Source: Candidatus Aerophobetes bacterium Ae_b3b (GTDB taxonomy: Bacteria; Aerophobota; Aerophobia; Aerophobales; AE-B3A). Taken from it: 23,764 nucleotides of DNA. Both the position numbers and the translations under genes were made by a program. Within the stretch, counting starts at the first letter, position 1; each line of letters begins with the position of its first letter. This document shows, one piece after another, positions 12,624 through 20,185 of the stretch. The notes under the pieces are model-generated. The model saw only the letters and a program-made list of their open reading frames with translations, was not told the origin of the DNA and searched no databases. The stretch is from positions 1 to 23,764 of the forward strand of contig NJBP01000033.1 in the NCBI GenBank assembly GCA_005223085.1, written 5' to 3'.

Positions 12624-13244
12624 ATGAAAGCGATTGGTTATATAAGAATTTCTACTCAGGAACAAGCTAAAGAAGGAATATCCCTTGAGGCTCAAGAGGA
12701 TAAGATAAGAAAATACGCTGTCCTTCACAATTTGAGCTTGATTGAAGTGGTGAGAGATGAGGGGGAGTCAGGAGAGGATTTAGACCGGGAAGGGATACAA
12801 AAAGTTATAGCTCTGTGCGAGAAAAGAAAGGTTGACCACCTGATAGTCTATAAAATGGATAGGTTAACCGGGAAGACTTTGGATCTTCTTATTTTAATTG
12901 AGAGGATTTTCAAACCAAACAAGGTTCAACTGCACTCCATTACTGAAAGGATAGATACTTCTACTGCTCAAGGCAAGTTCTTTCTGACCATCATTGAAGC
13001 TATGCCTCAGATTGGTGTAGCCTTAGGAGTTATGTTTTGCATTATGTTATGGTTTTTCTCTACCGTAGGTTTGGGTATACTTGCTTTACTCGGTAAATCT
13101 AAAAGTGATAAGAAGAATGATAAGACCTCTCATGGACTATGTGCAGATTGTTGGCTGTCAGGCGAGTGTGAAAGAGAAAAAAAGGCCAAGAGATCTGGGG
13201 AGATAATCACCAGTTGCCGAGGTCATCTTCCTAAAAGTAAGTGA
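12624..13244 (+). CDS. Truncated serine-recombinase catalytic domain joined to a membrane helix and Cys-rich tail
   Basis: Residues 1-133 are a recognisable resolvase/invertase catalytic domain: YIRISTQEQ with the nucleophile Ser10, SLEAQEDKIRKYA, DEGESGEDLDREG, YKMDRLTGKTLDLL and TAQGKFFLTIIEAM. Normally this leads into helix E, then a recombinase domain and zinc ribbon. Here, after AMPQ, the protein becomes a membrane segment (IGVALGVMFCIMLWFF and on, about 136-162), then a polar tail with CADCWLSGEC and a later Cys, which may bind metal. No DNA-binding domain is visible, so site-specific recombination in the usual way is doubtful. It may be a fusion of a recombinase fragment with an unrelated small membrane protein, or two genes joined by a deletion. 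The ribosome site is weak. It follows the clpB terminator and precedes the radical SAM operon by 76 bases. Confidence 0.65.
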   Translation: MKAIGYIRISTQEQAKEGISLEAQEDKIRKYAVLHNLSLIEVVRDEGESGEDLDREGIQKVIALCEKRKVDHLIVYKMDRLTGKTLDLLILIERIFKPNKVQLHSITERIDTSTAQGKFFLTIIEAMPQIGVALGVMFCIMLWFFSTVGLGILALLGKSKSDKKNDKTSHGLCADCWLSGECEREKKAKRSGEIITSCRGHLPKSK

Positions 13245-13320: not shown

Positions 13321-14535
13321 ATGAGATTGTTTAAATTAGCGAGCCAGCTTTTTATGGGGGCAATTTTGGGGATATTTTTTTTGCTCCCTCATACAGGAAG
13401 CCAGGCAGGAGAGCCATCCTTAAAAGAGGCTTATTTTTACCGTAAACTAGGAGATAACGAGACTCAATGCCTGATGTGTCCCCGAAAATGCCTTATCCCC
13501 GAAGGAGCCAGAGGAGTTTGTCGCAACAGAGAAAACCAGTCAGGAACCCTTTTTGCCTTAACCTATGGGAGGCCCTGTAGTATAGCGGTGGAGCCCATCG
13601 AGAAAGCCCCCTTTTGGCACTTTATCCCCGGGCATAAGCGTCTGTGTGTAGCTACAGTGGGCTGTAATTTGCGCTGTAAATACTGTCAAAATTGGCACAT
13701 TTCACAAAAGCGCGTAGAGGAGGTAAGGCATTATAATTTATCTCCAGAAGAAATTGTCGAAATAGCCAAAAGGGAAGGTGTAAAGTCCATTTGCTTTACC
13801 TTTAGTGAACCTACTGCTTTTTATGAATATATGTATGATATCGCCAAGTTAGCTAAGGAAAATGGACTTATGACCTCCATTGTTTCCAATGGCTTTATCA
13901 ATCCAGAGCCTTTAAGAAAGCTCACTAAAGTTCTGGATGCAGTGAAAATTGACCTCAAAGGCTTCTCGGAAGACTTTTATGAGGAAGTCTGTTTTGGAAG
14001 GCTTGAGCCTGTGCTTAATACCTTGAGGATTTTAAAGGAGGAGGGAACGTGGGTGGAAATTGTTAATTTAATCGTTCCTCCCCTTAACGACGATGCCAAC
14101 GAGATTGAAAAGATGTGTGAATGGATTAAGAAAAACTTAGGGGATGAAGTGCCCTTGCATTTCATCCGTTTTTTCCCCAATTATAAATTAACTCACCTAC
14201 CACCTACACCGGTTGAAACCCTGGAGAAGGCCATAGAAATTGCCCAGGGGGTGGGGCTTAAATATGTCTATATTGGCAATGTTCCCGGTCATAAATACAA
14301 TTTTACTTATTGCCCTAAGTGCGGAAGGTGCTTAATTAAGCGGGTAGTTTTTTTCCTGTTGGAAAACAATATTGTGAATGGCAGGTGCAAATTCTGCGGG
14401 GAGAAAATTCCCGGTTTCTGGGGTAGAAATTTAAAAAAGAGTAGGGGAGGGGAGCATGCTAAAACGCGTGAGGAGAAAAATTTGGATTTTACTAATTGTG
14501 CTCATAATACCGGCCTTGCTATACTCGCTGTATAA
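13321..14535 (+). CDS. Exported or membrane-anchored radical SAM protein, AmmeMemoRadiSam type (first paralogue)
   Basis: This 404-residue protein has the radical SAM cluster motif CNLRCKYC (Cys115, Cys119, Cys122). It also has an N-terminal four-Cys motif CLMCPRKC then Cys67, and a C-terminal CPKCGRC with a later CKFC. The order, plus RFFPNYKLTHLPPTP and YIGNVPGHKYN, matches the AmmeMemoRadiSam-system radical SAM enzymes, related to pyruvate-formate-lyase activases. Residues 1-30 look like a Sec signal peptide ending near GSQAGE, which is odd for an enzyme that needs SAM and a low-potential reductant. The usual partners, Memo-like and AMMECR1 proteins, are absent nearby. The frame reads about 34 residues past the normal family end, overlapping the next gene by 80 bases. 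First gene of a five-gene operon; substrate unknown. Confidence 0.85.
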   Translation: MRLFKLASQLFMGAILGIFFLLPHTGSQAGEPSLKEAYFYRKLGDNETQCLMCPRKCLIPEGARGVCRNRENQSGTLFALTYGRPCSIAVEPIEKAPFWHFIPGHKRLCVATVGCNLRCKYCQNWHISQKRVEEVRHYNLSPEEIVEIAKREGVKSICFTFSEPTAFYEYMYDIAKLAKENGLMTSIVSNGFINPEPLRKLTKVLDAVKIDLKGFSEDFYEEVCFGRLEPVLNTLRILKEEGTWVEIVNLIVPPLNDDANEIEKMCEWIKKNLGDEVPLHFIRFFPNYKLTHLPPTPVETLEKAIEIAQGVGLKYVYIGNVPGHKYNFTYCPKCGRCLIKRVVFFLLENNIVNGRCKFCGEKIPGFWGRNLKKSRGGEHAKTREEKNLDFTNCAHNTGLAILAV

Positions 14536-15613
14536 TCCAGGATATTCCTCAGGCACCTTGGACACCATAACTTCAGCCTCACCTAAGGCAAAAAAGGAAT
14601 CTTTCTTGAGGGAAGCCATGTTCTATAAAGTATTAGTTGGCAACGAAGTTCAATGCCAGATGTGTTTTCGGAAATGCATAATTCCTGAGGGCAGAAGGGG
14701 CGCTTGCAGAAACAGAGAAAACCGTAAAGGGAAATTATACAGTGTTGTTTACGGCCGACCCTCTGCTGTGCATATAGACCCGGTAGAGAAAGAGCCGCAG
14801 TACCATTTTTTGCCAGGCTCGGAAATCTTGTGCATAGGCACTGCGGGCTGTAATTTCAGATGCCGCCATTGCCACAATTGGCACCTTTCTCAGCGCTCAA
14901 TTGAAGAGATGGCATATGTGTATGACCTTATGCCTGAAAAGGCAGTAGAGCAGGCCTTAAAGAACAAAATTCCCACCATGTCCTTTACCTATAATGAGCC
15001 AACCTCCTTTTATGAGTATGTTTACGATATTGCTAAACTGGCCAAGGAAAAGGGCCTGAGGATTATCTGGCACTCTAACGGAGCGCTTAATCCCGCTCCT
15101 TTAAAGGAACTTCTTAAATACACAGATGGGGTGACCATAGATTTAAAGGGTTTTTCTCAAAGAGCCTATGACAACTCCTCCGCAGAGCTGGAGCCTGTGC
15201 TAAGGACCCTCAAAATCATCAACAAGGAGGGCAAATGGCTGGAGATCGTAAATTTGGTCATCCCCACTATAAACGATGACCTGGAGGAAATCAGGAAGAT
15301 GTGCATCTGGATCAAGGAAAATTTGGGAGTGGATGTGCCGCTCCACTTCTCCAGATTTTTCCCTGCCTACAGATTGACTCAGCTACCACCCACACCTATC
15401 TCCACCTTAGAAAAGGCTTATGAGATTGCCAGAAAAGTAGGCTTAAACTACGTAAGCATTGGCAATGTCCCCGGCCACAAGTATAACTCTACTTTCTGTC
15501 CAAAATGCGGGAAGAAATTGATACACCGCACTCACTTTATGGTATTAAGCAATGATATAGAAGACGGGAAGTGTAGATTTTGCGGGCAGGAAATTCCCGG
15601 CATCTGGAAGTAG
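14456..15613 (+). CDS. Membrane-anchored radical SAM protein, AmmeMemoRadiSam type (second paralogue)
   Basis: This 385-residue paralogue of the preceding gene has CNFRCRHC (Cys132, Cys136, Cys139), the N-terminal CQMCFRKC plus Cys84, and a C-terminal CPKCGKK with CRFC. It ends cleanly with IPGIWK, the expected family end. The first 26 residues, MLKRVRRK then a hydrophobic stretch to about 26, form a membrane anchor with positive residues first and no clear cleavage site. The ribosome site GGGGAGGGGAG precedes the ATG, inside the extended end of the upstream gene. The two paralogues are similar along their whole length but clearly diverged, so this is an old duplication retained for distinct roles. 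Neighbours suggest a membrane-associated redox or modification process. Confidence 0.87.
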   Translation: MLKRVRRKIWILLIVLIIPALLYSLYNPGYSSGTLDTITSASPKAKKESFLREAMFYKVLVGNEVQCQMCFRKCIIPEGRRGACRNRENRKGKLYSVVYGRPSAVHIDPVEKEPQYHFLPGSEILCIGTAGCNFRCRHCHNWHLSQRSIEEMAYVYDLMPEKAVEQALKNKIPTMSFTYNEPTSFYEYVYDIAKLAKEKGLRIIWHSNGALNPAPLKELLKYTDGVTIDLKGFSQRAYDNSSAELEPVLRTLKIINKEGKWLEIVNLVIPTINDDLEEIRKMCIWIKENLGVDVPLHFSRFFPAYRLTQLPPTPISTLEKAYEIARKVGLNYVSIGNVPGHKYNSTFCPKCGKKLIHRTHFMVLSNDIEDGKCRFCGQEIPGIWK

Positions 15614-15658
15614 AGTTTTATAGTTATTCCACCCATACCAAGCCTGGCGAGGCATACC

Positions 15659-17968
15659 TTGTTCATAAGAAGACGTTTCGTATTTGCTGTACTAGCGCTG
15701 GGATTTAGTGGTATGGTAGCTCAGGTGCTGCTTCTGCGAGAAATACTGGTGATATTTCACGGAAATGAATTAACCATCGGCATTATCCTGGGGAACTGGC
15801 TTGTTCTGGAGGCGATAGGCGCATTTCTCCTAGGTAAACAAATTGAGAAAATCAGACTGAAACTTGAGGCATTTGTGGTTATCCAACTACTTGTCTCACT
15901 TCTTTTTCCCTCAATGATTTACCTTGCCCGGATTTTCAAGGGAATAATAGGAATCCCCGTTGGTGAGGGTTTGGGTCTCCTGCCAATTTTTTATTCCTCA
16001 TTTTTAATACTCCTCCCGGTTAGCCTTCTTCATGGAGCAGCTTTTACCTTTGCCTGCAAAATACATTCTGAGATACTTAAAAAAAGGGCAGTCTCCATTG
16101 GCAGGGTCTATGTTTATGAAACCCTGGGGGTCCTCATAGGCGGGGTTGCCTTTACCTATCTTTTGATCCCCTATTTTCATTCCTTCAAGATATCCTTCGG
16201 ACTCGGACTGTTAAATGTTCTAGTGTGCTTAGGTCTGTTGGGCAGGTTTTGGCAGGGAGGAGGGGCAAGCTTCAAAAAATTTTTGGGTGGTGCTTCAGCA
16301 GTATTTTTGGGGATATTTCTCTTCTCACTCATTGGTCCAGTAGCGGATAGATTGCATCATCTTTCCATAAGTGAGCAATGGAAGGTGGGAAAAATAGAGC
16401 ATTACCAGAATTCTATTTACGGGAACATCGTGGTGGTAAAAAAAGGTGAGCAATATACCTTCTTTTTCGATGGCATCCCCGTTGTCAGCACTCCTCTTCC
16501 AGATGTAACCCACACCGAGGACTTCGTCCATCTATCTTTACTTTCCCATCCTGAGCCTCGCGAGATCTTAGTTATCAGCGGTGGGGCTGGTGGGGTTATA
16601 AATGAGATATTAAAACACAAAATAAAAAGGGTTGATTATGCTGAACTTGACCCGGTGCTCCTGCAGGTCGTCCAGAAATTTCCCACCCCTCTTACGGAAA
16701 GGGAATTAAGCCATCCCCGAGTACACATCAAATATGTAGATGGCAGGTATTTCGTTAAAAAAACTGATCATAAGTACGATGTGGTTCTCATAGGTATATC
16801 CGAACTTTCCAATCTACAGGTGAACAGATTAGCAACTGAGGAATTTTTCCTAATGGTCAAAGCTATCTTGAAGGAAAAGGGTATCTTAGTCATCTCATCT
16901 CCTGGCTCTTTAACCTATTTAAGTGAGGAGCTCATAAATCTTAATCTCTGCCTTCTTAACACCCTTAGAGGAGTTTATCCGTGGGTGAAAATAGTCCCCG
17001 GGGATTTTAATCTCTTCCTGGCCTCGATCTCCCCTCAAATTCTTGAGGTGGACTCTTCCTTGCTTATAAAAAGGTTAGGAGAGCGTGAGCTTCGGACATT
17101 TTCTCTAACCTCTGACTATATCCGCTATAGATTGCACTCCAGATGGCTGGATTGGTTTTTGAATTCCTTAGCCGCTGGTAGAGAAACTGCTTCCGGTAAT
17201 GAAACGAAGATCAATAAAGATTTTCATCCTTTGGGCACTTTCTATAGCCTTGCCTTTTGGAATGCTCTCTTTTCTCCCTGGGGGCAACCATTATTTAGCT
17301 GGTTTGAGAGTTTGAGCCTTCGCTTCTTCTTTATAGCTTTAAGTATGTTTGGCCTTCTGTTTCTCTTATTTGGATATAGAAATCGGAGGCTCAGGAAGGG
17401 AGCTGTCCCCTTTGCCATTATCTCCACCGGCTTTGCTGGGATGATGTTTAACTTAATCTTGATTTTTGCCTTCCAGGTAGTTTACGGATACCTCTACTAC
17501 TGGATAGGGCTTTTAACCAGCATTTTTATGGCAGGAGCAGGTGTTGGTGGATTGTTGGTGACACGCTCATTGGAGAAGATCAAAGAAGATCTTCTCTATC
17601 TTTTAAAACTGGAGGCCTCTATAATAATACTTTCTCTTCTTTTGCCCTTTATCTTCCTTCAATCAGGTCCCTACTTTGGCCAATTCTTCTCTCAAACAAT
17701 CTTCCTCATTTTGTGTTTTATCTCCGGACTCCTGATCGGAGCAGAGTTTCCTTTAGCTAATAAAATACATTTAAAAACCTCTCCCAGTGTAAGTGGTACT
17801 GCAGGTCTATTTTACGCTGGCGACCTGTTAGGTGGTTGGTTAGGGGGGATTATTGGTGGAGTAGCACTTCTGCCTGTTTTAGGCCTGTGGAAAACCTGTC
17901 TCATCATAGCTTACCTTAAAATAATCAGTCTCATTATACTGATAGTCTTAGGTAAAAGGCTCAAATGA
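15659..17968 (+). CDS. Multi-pass membrane protein with internal spermidine-synthase-like domain
   Basis: The 769-residue protein starts at a TTG (15659) with GCGAGG about ten bases upstream. Residues about 5-225 hold six or seven membrane segments, about 235-500 form a soluble methyltransferase-like fold of the spermidine synthase family, and about 545-769 add six more membrane segments. The SAM-binding region is recognisable (VISGGAGGVINEILK from about 305, then VDYAELDP), as is DGRYF near 361. The glycine-rich loop has Ala where polyamine synthases have Asp, and the catalytic Asp region reads LIGISELSN instead of a D-x-x-DP pattern. True aminopropyl transfer is therefore unlikely; it may bind a SAM-like ligand or act structurally. 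Its stop overlaps the next start in ATGA, so the two are translationally coupled. Confidence 0.8.
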   Translation: MFIRRRFVFAVLALGFSGMVAQVLLLREILVIFHGNELTIGIILGNWLVLEAIGAFLLGKQIEKIRLKLEAFVVIQLLVSLLFPSMIYLARIFKGIIGIPVGEGLGLLPIFYSSFLILLPVSLLHGAAFTFACKIHSEILKKRAVSIGRVYVYETLGVLIGGVAFTYLLIPYFHSFKISFGLGLLNVLVCLGLLGRFWQGGGASFKKFLGGASAVFLGIFLFSLIGPVADRLHHLSISEQWKVGKIEHYQNSIYGNIVVVKKGEQYTFFFDGIPVVSTPLPDVTHTEDFVHLSLLSHPEPREILVISGGAGGVINEILKHKIKRVDYAELDPVLLQVVQKFPTPLTERELSHPRVHIKYVDGRYFVKKTDHKYDVVLIGISELSNLQVNRLATEEFFLMVKAILKEKGILVISSPGSLTYLSEELINLNLCLLNTLRGVYPWVKIVPGDFNLFLASISPQILEVDSSLLIKRLGERELRTFSLTSDYIRYRLHSRWLDWFLNSLAAGRETASGNETKINKDFHPLGTFYSLAFWNALFSPWGQPLFSWFESLSLRFFFIALSMFGLLFLLFGYRNRRLRKGAVPFAIISTGFAGMMFNLILIFAFQVVYGYLYYWIGLLTSIFMAGAGVGGLLVTRSLEKIKEDLLYLLKLEASIIILSLLLPFIFLQSGPYFGQFFSQTIFLILCFISGLLIGAEFPLANKIHLKTSPSVSGTAGLFYAGDLLGGWLGGIIGGVALLPVLGLWKTCLIIAYLKIISLIILIVLGKRLK

Positions 17969-18648
17969 AAATAGTGAGAAAGAAGAGGAACCTGTGGTTA
18001 ATTTGCCTCCTCGTTATAGCAGGCACTTTTCTTATATCAAGCTGTGTTTATGGCCTGCCGAAAAAAGAGCCTCTCTCTTATAAGGCCTTAAAAAATGAAT
18101 ATGAGATTGGCGGCCTCCTGGTAGATGCTGAAAAAGGTGAGATACACTTAACTGGCCGAGTTGTAAATCACAAAGGCTGGGTACAGTTTCTTTTTTATGC
18201 CTCTGGTTATAAATGGCTTAAGGAAGAATCTGCCATCGTAATCGACGCTGATCTCTCCTCCCTGCAAACTGCCTTAGCGCTTCTGGATTGGAAACTCTGG
18301 CAGCGGCTCTGGGAAAAAAGAAGTAGAGATGAGGATATCAAAGTTACGCTCAACTGGGAAAATGGAAACAATATCTTAGCCACCAAACTGCTCAAAAAGG
18401 CTAATGATATTCGATTCTCCGATCTTATATTTGTTGGCTCTCCTTATTTTGATGAGGCGGTTTTAGGAGGCGGCTTCAGCGGACCGTGTAGTCGCTGTCC
18501 CTTATTTACTTTAGAAGAAAAGGCGCTGCGAAAGCAGTTTACACGGCCCTCCGGGAAATCCGGCTATTTTCTTGATGAAAACCTTATGCCCCCAAAAGGA
18601 ACCTATCTTAAGATAACTATTAAATTGCCAGACAAAATTGATGGCTGA
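17965..18648 (+). CDS. Lipoprotein, YdjY-domain-like
   Basis: This 227-residue protein starts in an ATGA overlap with the previous stop. MKIVRKKRN plus a hydrophobic stretch and LISSC around residue 27 make a good lipoprotein signal, placing it outside the membrane. The middle, LTGRVVNHKGWVQFLFYASG then KWLKEESAIVIDADLSSLQTAL and VTLNWENG, resembles the YdjY domain (secreted or ferredoxin-like proteins of unknown role); this match is by pattern memory and tentative. The later part has GPCSRCPLF, a CxxC pair that could bind metal or form a disulfide, fitting the thiol-handling protein encoded next. Function unknown. Confidence 0.65.
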   Translation: MKIVRKKRNLWLICLLVIAGTFLISSCVYGLPKKEPLSYKALKNEYEIGGLLVDAEKGEIHLTGRVVNHKGWVQFLFYASGYKWLKEESAIVIDADLSSLQTALALLDWKLWQRLWEKRSRDEDIKVTLNWENGNNILATKLLKKANDIRFSDLIFVGSPYFDEAVLGGGFSGPCSRCPLFTLEEKALRKQFTRPSGKSGYFLDENLMPPKGTYLKITIKLPDKIDG

Positions 18649-19285
18649 GCTCATACAACTATTTCTGATTGGACTTACCTCATCTTTCTCAGCTTGCCTC
18701 GTTTTTTGCTCCCCCCTTATTGTCGGGTATATAGGGACAACCAGAAAAGGCTGGTCTTCCGGGCTCAAGGCGGTATCCCTGATTTTAGCTTCTCGGCTGG
18801 CTGGTTTTATAATCTTGGGAGTACTGGCATCTATGGCTGGACGACTGCTATTGGATTGGCTAATTGGAGTAAAAAGTATTTCATTTGCTCTAGGTGGGGC
18901 CTTAATCGTATCCCTGGGAGTACTAATCATTGTTAGTCACCAGGCTAGGAACCCTTTCTGCAGGATTGCAGGAAAGATAAAAGGGGTTTTCACTCCTGGA
19001 GATCTTATCCTACTGGGTCTCGTTATGGCGTTTTTGCCCTGTGCCCCCCATCTGGTTTTGTTTGGATTTGTAGCTCTTAGCGCCACTTCCATATTCCAGG
19101 GGATGGCTTTGGCGGCCGCCTTTGGTATAGGAGCTTCTATCTCTCCTTTGATACTGGGTGCGGTAAGTGGCGAGCTTTCCCGAATCACCTCCTCCAAAGG
19201 CTGGATAACTGCCGCATTTAGAATTTTCTGCGGTGGGCTAATAATAGCTGTAGGCTTACAATTGCTTATAGGTGTACTATTGTAA
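18641..19285 (+). CDS. CcdA/DsbD-like (TauE/SafE-related) membrane thiol transporter
   Basis: I take the ATG at 18641 (214 residues); a TTG one codon earlier is the alternative. It overlaps the preceding gene by eight bases. Six membrane segments are visible. The first has SFSACLVFCSP with Cys19 and Cys23, and the fourth has AFLPCAPH with Cys134, matching the paired membrane cysteines that CcdA/DsbD-type proteins use to pass electrons from cytoplasmic thioredoxin outward. The family also includes DsbD_2/TauE-SafE proteins annotated as sulfite exporters, so the name is uncertain. In this operon it could deliver reducing power to the extracytoplasmic CxxC-containing lipoprotein or to the anchored radical SAM proteins. 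Confidence 0.75.
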   Translation: MAELIQLFLIGLTSSFSACLVFCSPLIVGYIGTTRKGWSSGLKAVSLILASRLAGFIILGVLASMAGRLLLDWLIGVKSISFALGGALIVSLGVLIIVSHQARNPFCRIAGKIKGVFTPGDLILLGLVMAFLPCAPHLVLFGFVALSATSIFQGMALAAAFGIGASISPLILGAVSGELSRITSSKGWITAAFRIFCGGLIIAVGLQLLIGVLL

Positions 19286-19955: not shown

Positions 19956-19983
19956 TTGACAAATATTCCTTATTTATTATAAT
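19956..19983 (+). promoter_or_regulatory. Consensus promoter of the riboswitch transcript
   Basis: TTGACA (19956-19961), a 16-base AT-rich spacer and a perfect TATAAT (19978-19983). Transcription would start near 19990, about 60 bases before the aptamer core. Confidence 0.75.
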
Positions 19984-20052: not shown

Positions 20053-20136
20053 ATAATCGACAAAGGCAAACTGTTCGAAAGAATAGGGCGCAAAACCACA
20101 GGCCTTTTAAATGGCGGCTGGGTTACCGAAGTTAGA
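20053..20136 (+). ncRNA. GEMM-I cyclic-di-GMP riboswitch aptamer
   Basis: The core matches the GEMM-I consensus as I know it from the Vibrio Vc2 RNA. AAAGGCAAAC lies at 20062-20071. A six-pair stem CTGTTC/GAATAG is capped by a GAAA tetraloop (20077-20080), followed by GGCGCAAAACC at 20087-20097. The 3' half has GGCTGGGTTACCGAA at 20116-20130. The base equivalent to Vc2 G20, which sets ligand choice, is G at 20065, as in cyclic-di-GMP binders; cyclic AMP-GMP variants have A there. Closing pairs may form between TAATCG and CGAAGTTA. An outer helix TTGAGA (20024-20029) with TCTCAA (20144-20149) could compete with the terminator. It precedes a perfect terminator, so it probably controls readthrough into the ORFs at 20285 and beyond. 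Confidence 0.88.
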
Positions 20137-20151
20137 CCGTGAGTCTCAATC

Positions 20152-20185
20152 GCCCATTCTTTCGAAGGAAAGAATGGGCTTTTTT
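20152..20185 (+). terminator. Riboswitch expression-platform terminator
   Basis: GCCCATTCTTTC (20152-20163) pairs perfectly over 12 bases with GAAAGAATGGGC (20168-20179) around a GAAG loop, followed by six T. It starts 15 bases after the aptamer, placing it as the regulated terminator. Confidence 0.9.

Follow-up and report, generated by a model that had tools for sequence, protein, structure and literature searches.

To our knowledge, radical S-adenosylmethionine (SAM) enzymes have all been assigned to the cytosol on the ground that it holds SAM, low-potential electrons and the site of cluster assembly. The closest described relatives of the locus studied here include the AmmeMemoRadiSam system, with its radical SAM protein (TIGR04337), Memo (TIGR04336) and AMMECR1 (TIGR04335), along with the spermidine synthases, the CcdA/DsbD thiol transporters and the glycyl-radical enzyme activases. 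We analysed a 23,764-nt stretch of DNA (the window) of contig NJBP01000033.1 from Candidatus Aerophobetes bacterium Ae_b3b, in which an operon at positions 13321–19285 encodes two TIGR04337-family proteins (rS1 and rS2), a membrane protein with an inserted spermidine-synthase fold (SpdM), a YdjY-like lipoprotein and a CcdA-like membrane protein. Judged from its sequences, the operon belongs to a widespread and apparently undescribed set of radical SAM enzymes with export signals, suggesting that in some bacteria radical chemistry takes place beyond the cytoplasm. On balance, we favour a reading in which the operon encodes an extracytoplasmic radical SAM system, with SpdM handling SAM on the outside and the CcdA-like protein supplying thiol electrons.

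An initial annotation of the window, made from the letters alone, had proposed a five-gene set, and all five open reading frames (ORFs) are present on the forward strand, at 13321–14535, 14456–15613, 15659–17968, 17965–18648 and 18638–19285. The 80-base overlap, 45-base gap and ATGA overlap that it described are all correct; the 8-base overlap given for the last two genes holds from an ATG at 18641, but becomes 11 bases from a TTG at 18638, which is also a possible start.

Export signals of the radical SAM enzymes

The export-type AmmeMemoSam-family proteins rS1 (404 residues, 13321–14535) and rS2 (385 residues, 14456–15613) score 371 and 336 bits against a TIGR04337 cut-off of 220, also match PF04055, and are 58% identical across 338 shared residues. 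Both retain the CxxxCxxC radical SAM motif that is a feature of TIGR04337 membership, as C115xxxC119xxC122 in rS1 (13663–13686) and, by alignment, as C132xxxC136xxC139 in rS2 (14849–14872). In agreement with the initial annotation, each begins with a hydrophobic signal or anchor segment: in rS1 a Sec-type segment (MRLFKLASQLFMGAILGIFFLLPHTGSQA-G, 13321–13413) with lysine/arginine residues before it, and in rS2 an anchor (MLKRVRRKIWILLIVLIIPALLYSLYNPG, 14456–14548) recognised by hydropathy, charge and alignment. Neither segment has a counterpart in a third TIGR04337 protein of the same genome, a 338-residue canonical copy on another contig, whose first motif cysteine is C17 and which has no N-terminal extension. 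A strong Shine-Dalgarno sequence (AGGGGAGGGGAG) lies just upstream of rS2 at 14456. The last ~37 residues of rS1 (14425–14535), which overlap the start of rS2, are absent from relatives, and this C-terminal overrun may stem from a lost stop codon.

A profile built from seven relatives was searched against 386 genomes, giving matches in 267, and around 75 loci were fetched. These fall into two classes, a canonical class of ~330–340 residues and an export-type class with 28–100 additional N-terminal residues; the extension is found in 120 of the 144 collected family members, the canonical copies being without it. The rS1 cluster motif is invariant across both classes (120 export-type and 24 canonical-type rows), and the export-type rows retain every radical SAM cysteine. 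They additionally carry W384 (118 of 120 rows), H341 and C283, residues mostly missing from canonical members. On a core-domain tree, only four changes between the classes were seen, some of which depend on rows with short or cut N-termini. The gene neighbourhood of the window recurs at export-type loci of other genomes, spanning at least 13 named phyla or candidate phyla, so that the synteny across phyla by which the initial annotation proposed to recognise a system was indeed found. Its recurrence exceeds chance, the same neighbourhood being seen at none of the 21 canonical copies, whose surroundings held no SpdM, CcdA-like or DUF362 gene. These canonical copies (L225–L244, L054) are mostly solitary, a Memo or AMMECR1 gene lying in the fetched stretch at two of the 21 loci. 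Several export-type copies may also share a locus: two Bacteroidales loci (L162, L169) hold three each, and in Dehalococcoidia (L218, L223) five form a cluster that also includes SpdM, two CcdA-like genes and a YdjY-like gene.

That both proteins pass the TIGR04337 cut-off would fit an ordinary cytosolic AmmeMemoRadiSam pair with meaningless N-terminal tails. We consider this highly improbable, given the separate canonical copy in the same genome, the residues W384, H341 and C283 that mark the export-type class, and SpdM being near none of the 21 canonical loci; it is also already contradicted by the SpdM co-occurrence, TatC/RRxF and charge data described below.

Many export-type proteins start with RRxF followed by a moderately hydrophobic stretch, the form of a twin-arginine translocation (Tat) signal, and others start with a strongly hydrophobic segment without RRxF (median maximal hydropathy 1.69 vs 2.68, P = 6e-12). 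When TatC was searched across the same 386 genomes, the motif followed its presence closely, both by protein (29 of 41 from TatC-positive genomes vs 1 of 23 from TatC-negative ones, P = 1.7e-7) and by family (25 of 33 vs 0 of 12, P = 4e-6). An apparent exception in a TatC-negative genome under the strict RRxF count (L135) was discarded as an over-extended ORF, whose likely real start gives a Sec-type segment. The N-terminus types switch ~15 times on the core-domain tree, 10 of these on well supported branches, and hydrophobic targeting is kept throughout. A search for TatC gave nothing in the 17 genomes that represent the window's order, and neither rS1 nor rS2 contains RRxF, rS2 having 'RRKI' only; on these two grounds Tat export of the window enzymes was rejected and a Sec-type route preferred.

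The non-RRxF segments have a mean net charge of +2.7 before and +0.1 after the hydrophobic stretch, a bias that predicts the N-terminus inside and the enzyme domain outside. By charge and hydropathy, the N-termini of this protein type thus resemble export or anchor signals with a positive-inside pattern, rather than the ordinary cytosolic segments that a topology check might have returned. A tethered, cytoplasm-facing enzyme, with the N-terminal segment as a mere anchor and with SAM and electrons drawn from the cytosol, would suit the need of radical SAM chemistry for cytosolic SAM and low-potential electrons and the cytosolic location of all characterised members known to us, and reversed signal anchors do exist. 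Such an arrangement nevertheless appears improbable, because RRxF Tat motifs in many relatives are tied to the presence of TatC, the charge bias predicts N-in and C-out, a few relatives of rS1 and rS2 have lipobox-like sites, and adjoining Memo-AMMECR1 fusions carry cleavable-looking signals. A location of the radical SAM domains outside the cytoplasm, beyond mere association with the envelope, is therefore the placement that these predicted topologies support well.

SpdM as the constant partner

SpdM (769 residues, 15659–17968) matches the spermine synthase profile PF01564 at 85 bits. Its AlphaFold2 model, built from 53 sequences (pLDDT 92.3, pTM 0.90), contains seven transmembrane helices, a domain at residues ~240–540 (16376–17278) and seven more helices. 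The membrane part resembles transporters of the major facilitator superfamily (MFS; 6zgs, Z 28.1, 340 residues), and the domain resembles spermidine synthases (3anx, Z 29.1, 291 residues). Loop charges place the N-terminus inside and the SAM fold outside in 95 of 95 homologues (lysine plus arginine 24.6 in vs 3.9 out), and we infer a 14-helix MFS plan in which the domain sits in an outer loop between two extra helices. A cytoplasmic SAM fold, placed as the central loop of a 12-helix MFS protein, was rejected on account of the seven helices that precede the domain together with the outward charges in all 95 homologues.

The ribose- and adenine-side residues E329, D331, D361-G-R363 and D374 are retained in SpdM, nucleoside-binding residues being conserved at 95% or more, and a G/N379 position is new and conserved, the Q387-x-N389-R390 stretch being conserved as well. 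The aminopropyltransferase site has lost its two acidic residues, the aspartate of the GGGDGG motif to A/V/I/M310 and the catalytic aspartate of the DSTDP-type motif to G/N379, so that a working spermidine synthase was rejected. With the binding residues kept and both aspartates gone, SpdM appears to bind a nucleoside or SAM on the outer face rather than to act as an aminopropyltransferase.

An enzymatic role for SpdM is conceivable, in which the outward SAM fold would modify a lipid or small molecule of the envelope by adding either methyl or 3-amino-3-carboxypropyl, and the radical SAM proteins would work at an earlier or later step of one shared pathway. Group-transfer enzymes have this fold, and the strongly conserved nucleoside-binding residues, with G/N379 and the Q387-x-N389-R390 stretch, suggest a kept pocket. 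We regard such a role as rather unlikely, since neither acidic residue of the aminopropyltransferase site is kept, the membrane part forms a full MFS-type bundle, and the differing radical SAM families that accompany SpdM fit a shared need for SAM better than a single pathway.

Across the 386 genomes, with borderline ones set aside, SpdM occurs in 61 of 73 genomes with clear export-type radical SAM genes versus 5 of 295 others (P = 4e-51). In one of these five SpdM-only genomes, an Aerophobota member of the window's order (G013), SpdM adjoins a radical SAM protein of another kind that is likewise anchored at its N-terminus. A second radical SAM family of this kind (355–370 residues, Pfam Radical_SAM, with remote likeness to TIGR04337) mostly carries TRRxF-type signals; in the same Aerophobota genome, which lacks TatC (G013/L164), and in a genome from the Spirochaetia (L199), its anchor is of the Sec type. 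Among 80 named SpdM loci, an export-type TIGR04337 relative lies within four genes at 33 and the second family only at 18. Second-family genes were seen beside SpdM at L163, L164, L170–L172, L175–L181, L183, L192–L194, L199, L195 and L210. The initial annotation had proposed an envelope-associated system in which the CcdA-like protein supplies electrons; the envelope link and the synteny stood, while the constant partner turned out to be SpdM, the CcdA-like and lipoprotein genes accompanying mainly Sec-type enzymes.

Thiol transporter, further partners and genomic setting

The fourth gene (227 residues, 17965–18648) encodes a YdjY-like lipoprotein, identified by alignment and by a match to the NF040466 YdjY profile that lies below its cut-off (31 vs 50 bits), with a lipobox (ISSC) and a CxxC pair at residues 175–178. 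The fifth (18641–19285 from the ATG) encodes a DsbD_2/CcdA-like membrane thiol transporter that scores above the PF13386 DsbD_2 cut-off (58.3 vs 24.9 bits). The cysteines that had been pointed out in both proteins, CxxC in the lipoprotein and CcdA/DsbD-type cysteines in the last gene, are present, and all 20 CcdA-like homologues share a CxxxC in the first helix and a later PCxP-type cysteine, these three cysteines being invariant. The designation as a lipoprotein applies to the window protein, but not to its four clear relatives, which lack the lipobox and appear to be signal-anchored; CxxC is found in two of the four. An AlphaFold2 fold of the lipoprotein from four sequences was set aside as unusable (mean pLDDT 46).

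A CcdA-like gene lies near the export-type enzyme in 1 of 33 TatC-positive families versus 7 of 12 TatC-negative ones (P = 1e-4) and, among named loci, near all 17 enzymes of Chloroflexota and Spirochaetota. Given what is known of Sec, Tat and cytochrome c maturation, this pattern would be expected if a Sec-exported enzyme needs reduced cysteines for its clusters outside, whereas a Tat-exported one leaves the cell folded. The CcdA-like protein is a plausible electron supplier, although the reduction of a radical SAM cluster demands more than a thiol system can deliver by itself. The CcdA-like gene and the gene for the CxxC lipoprotein might instead serve another task, such as cytochrome c or metal-centre maturation, and merely share the operon. 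They are missing near most radical SAM/SpdM loci and their link to Sec-type enzymes does not reach significance in an independent-pairs test, as this alternative would have it; yet in Chloroflexota, Spirochaetota and Aerophobota, as in several unnamed families, CcdA-like or CxxC genes recur beside Sec-type enzymes, and the genes overlap in the window, so that we think an unrelated task rather unlikely.

Within five genes of 65 export-type loci, the commonest neighbours are SpdM (31), a protein of ~500 residues (26), DUF362 (17) and the CcdA-like protein (11). The ~500-residue neighbour joins Memo and AMMECR1 in one protein. The 23 fusions of more than 450 residues that lie near export-type genes all have a hydrophobic N-terminal signal, a few of them with a lipobox; RRxF is present in 18 of the 23 DUF362 proteins found. 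Several components of the export-type loci therefore carry export signals. DUF362 genes with RRxF Tat-type signals adjoin export-type genes at L047, L087, L091, L094–L097, L099, L108, L111, L115 and L137. The initial annotation had remarked on the absence of Memo and AMMECR1, which is true of the operon and, for Memo, of the whole window genome as assembled (88.6% complete); the link to these proteins is nonetheless kept, as related loci carry the secreted fusions. A lone AMMECR1 gene, without a signal, lies on another contig of the window genome. With Memo missing genome-wide and AMMECR1 standing alone elsewhere without a signal, the window holds TIGR04337 family members without a complete AmmeMemoRadiSam system.

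Two genes flanking the operon are 85–88% identical to genomes of the same family, which rules out mis-binning of the contig. Just 5′ of the operon, at 12624–13244 on the forward strand, lies an odd fusion of a serine-resolvase N-terminal domain with a hydrophobic helix and a cysteine-rich tail (CADCWLSGEC...SC). Downstream and outside the operon, a perfect sigma-70-like promoter match (19956–19983) precedes a c-di-GMP-I-GGC riboswitch (20056–20131, forward strand; RF03167, 68.7 bits); behind the riboswitch come a strong hairpin resembling a terminator (20152–20179) and, from 20540, small unassigned ORFs.

Proposed mechanism and comparison with known systems

The favoured extracytoplasmic reading can be laid out in four steps, in falling order of support. 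In the best supported step, the Sec-type segments at the N-termini of rS1 and rS2 would carry the two proteins through the membrane and leave the iron-sulphur/SAM domains on its outer face; where relatives possess a Tat system, these enzymes would be exported folded through Tat, and the signal sequences support both routes well. SpdM would act as a dedicated partner, most likely carrying SAM or a close nucleoside across the membrane and presenting SAM to the exported enzymes, possibly in exchange for 5′-deoxyadenosine or methionine, a role deduced from its position, its fold, the loss of catalytic residues and its co-occurrence with these enzymes. In Sec-type lineages, where the enzymes would arrive unfolded, the CcdA-like protein may move thiol reducing power outward, perhaps via the CxxC lipoprotein, keeping the cysteine-rich motifs reduced and cluster building possible. 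Finally, rS1 and rS2 might act on a protein, a lipid or a small molecule of the envelope; a protein target would be compatible with their kinship to glycyl-radical activases, and in other genomes the secreted Memo-AMMECR1 fusion may be part of the system.

Several points weigh against this reading. We know of no established extracytoplasmic SAM pool, an electron donor of low enough potential was not found, and MFS-type transport of SAM by SpdM is proposed by analogy rather than from likeness to any known transporter of SAM; a precedent for the export of a nucleotide cofactor does exist in flavin adenine dinucleotide, which is moved outward to periplasmic flavin transferases. The signal classes were assigned by simple motif and hydropathy rules, and an independent-pairs test of TatC against Sec type offered only four informative pairs and was not significant. 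The absence of TatC from single metagenome-assembled genomes may reflect incompleteness, although its absence from all 17 genomes of the window's order speaks against mere incompleteness. For Sec type and a CcdA-like neighbour, independent pairs ran in the same direction as the family count, but not significantly (3.5 agreeing and 0.5 disagreeing of 10 pairs, median p 0.25). At 29 of the 80 named SpdM loci, there is no radical SAM match of either family within four genes; several of these loci are cut off by a contig end, and at L195 and L210 a second-family gene is present but scores below the threshold. Lastly, among nine genomes of the window's family (G000–G008), SpdM and likewise the export-type radical SAM genes are restricted to the window genome (G000), so that the operon is patchily distributed and may have been acquired.

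A wider form of the extracytoplasmic reading, which we put forward tentatively and regard as somewhat doubtful, is that many anaerobic and uncultured bacteria maintain a pool of SAM outside the cytoplasm for at least two exported radical SAM families. SpdM, as a dedicated MFS-type exporter whose SAM-binding domain faces outward, would fill this pool, and depending on the translocases of the host the enzymes would leave either folded through Tat or through Sec with CcdA-like thiol reduction. If true, SAM would be used outside the cytoplasm and a new class of SAM transporter would be predicted; the loci would also offer a way to learn what the Memo/AMMECR1/radical SAM set does, two members of which, Memo and AMMECR1, are found in humans too.

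In full-text literature limited to open papers, we found no description of exported radical SAM enzymes, whether as extracytoplasmic, periplasmic, Tat-linked or AMMECR1-linked. Compared with the known systems, gene 5 shares with CcdA/DsbD proteins the six-helix size, the first-helix cysteines and the PCxP motif, but is tied to radical SAM genes instead of genes for cytochrome c or Dsb proteins. Glycyl-radical enzyme activases (PFL-AE, TIGR02493) are among the nearest other radical SAM families and provide the nearest solved structure (3c8f); the similarity is weak, and no glycyl radical enzyme was seen in the operon. SpdM has its SAM-fold domain in common with spermidine synthases (PF01564) and its combined architecture with fused MFS/spermidine synthases (NF037959), yet it falls below the cut-offs of NF037959 (33.7 vs 40 bits) and of the SpeE equivalogs, lacks the motif-I and catalytic aspartates, and has its domain between helices 7 and 8, predicted to face outside. 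With AmmeMemoRadiSam, the window enzymes share the radical SAM family and the cysteine motifs, and their relatives are partnered by Memo-AMMECR1 fusions; they differ in being anchored or exported at the N-terminus, duplicated, paired with SpdM, marked by class-specific residues and encoded in a genome without Memo. The enzyme family is thus a known one, its compartment and its SpdM partner are apparently new, and if SpdM is shown to move SAM, the system would count as a new kind.

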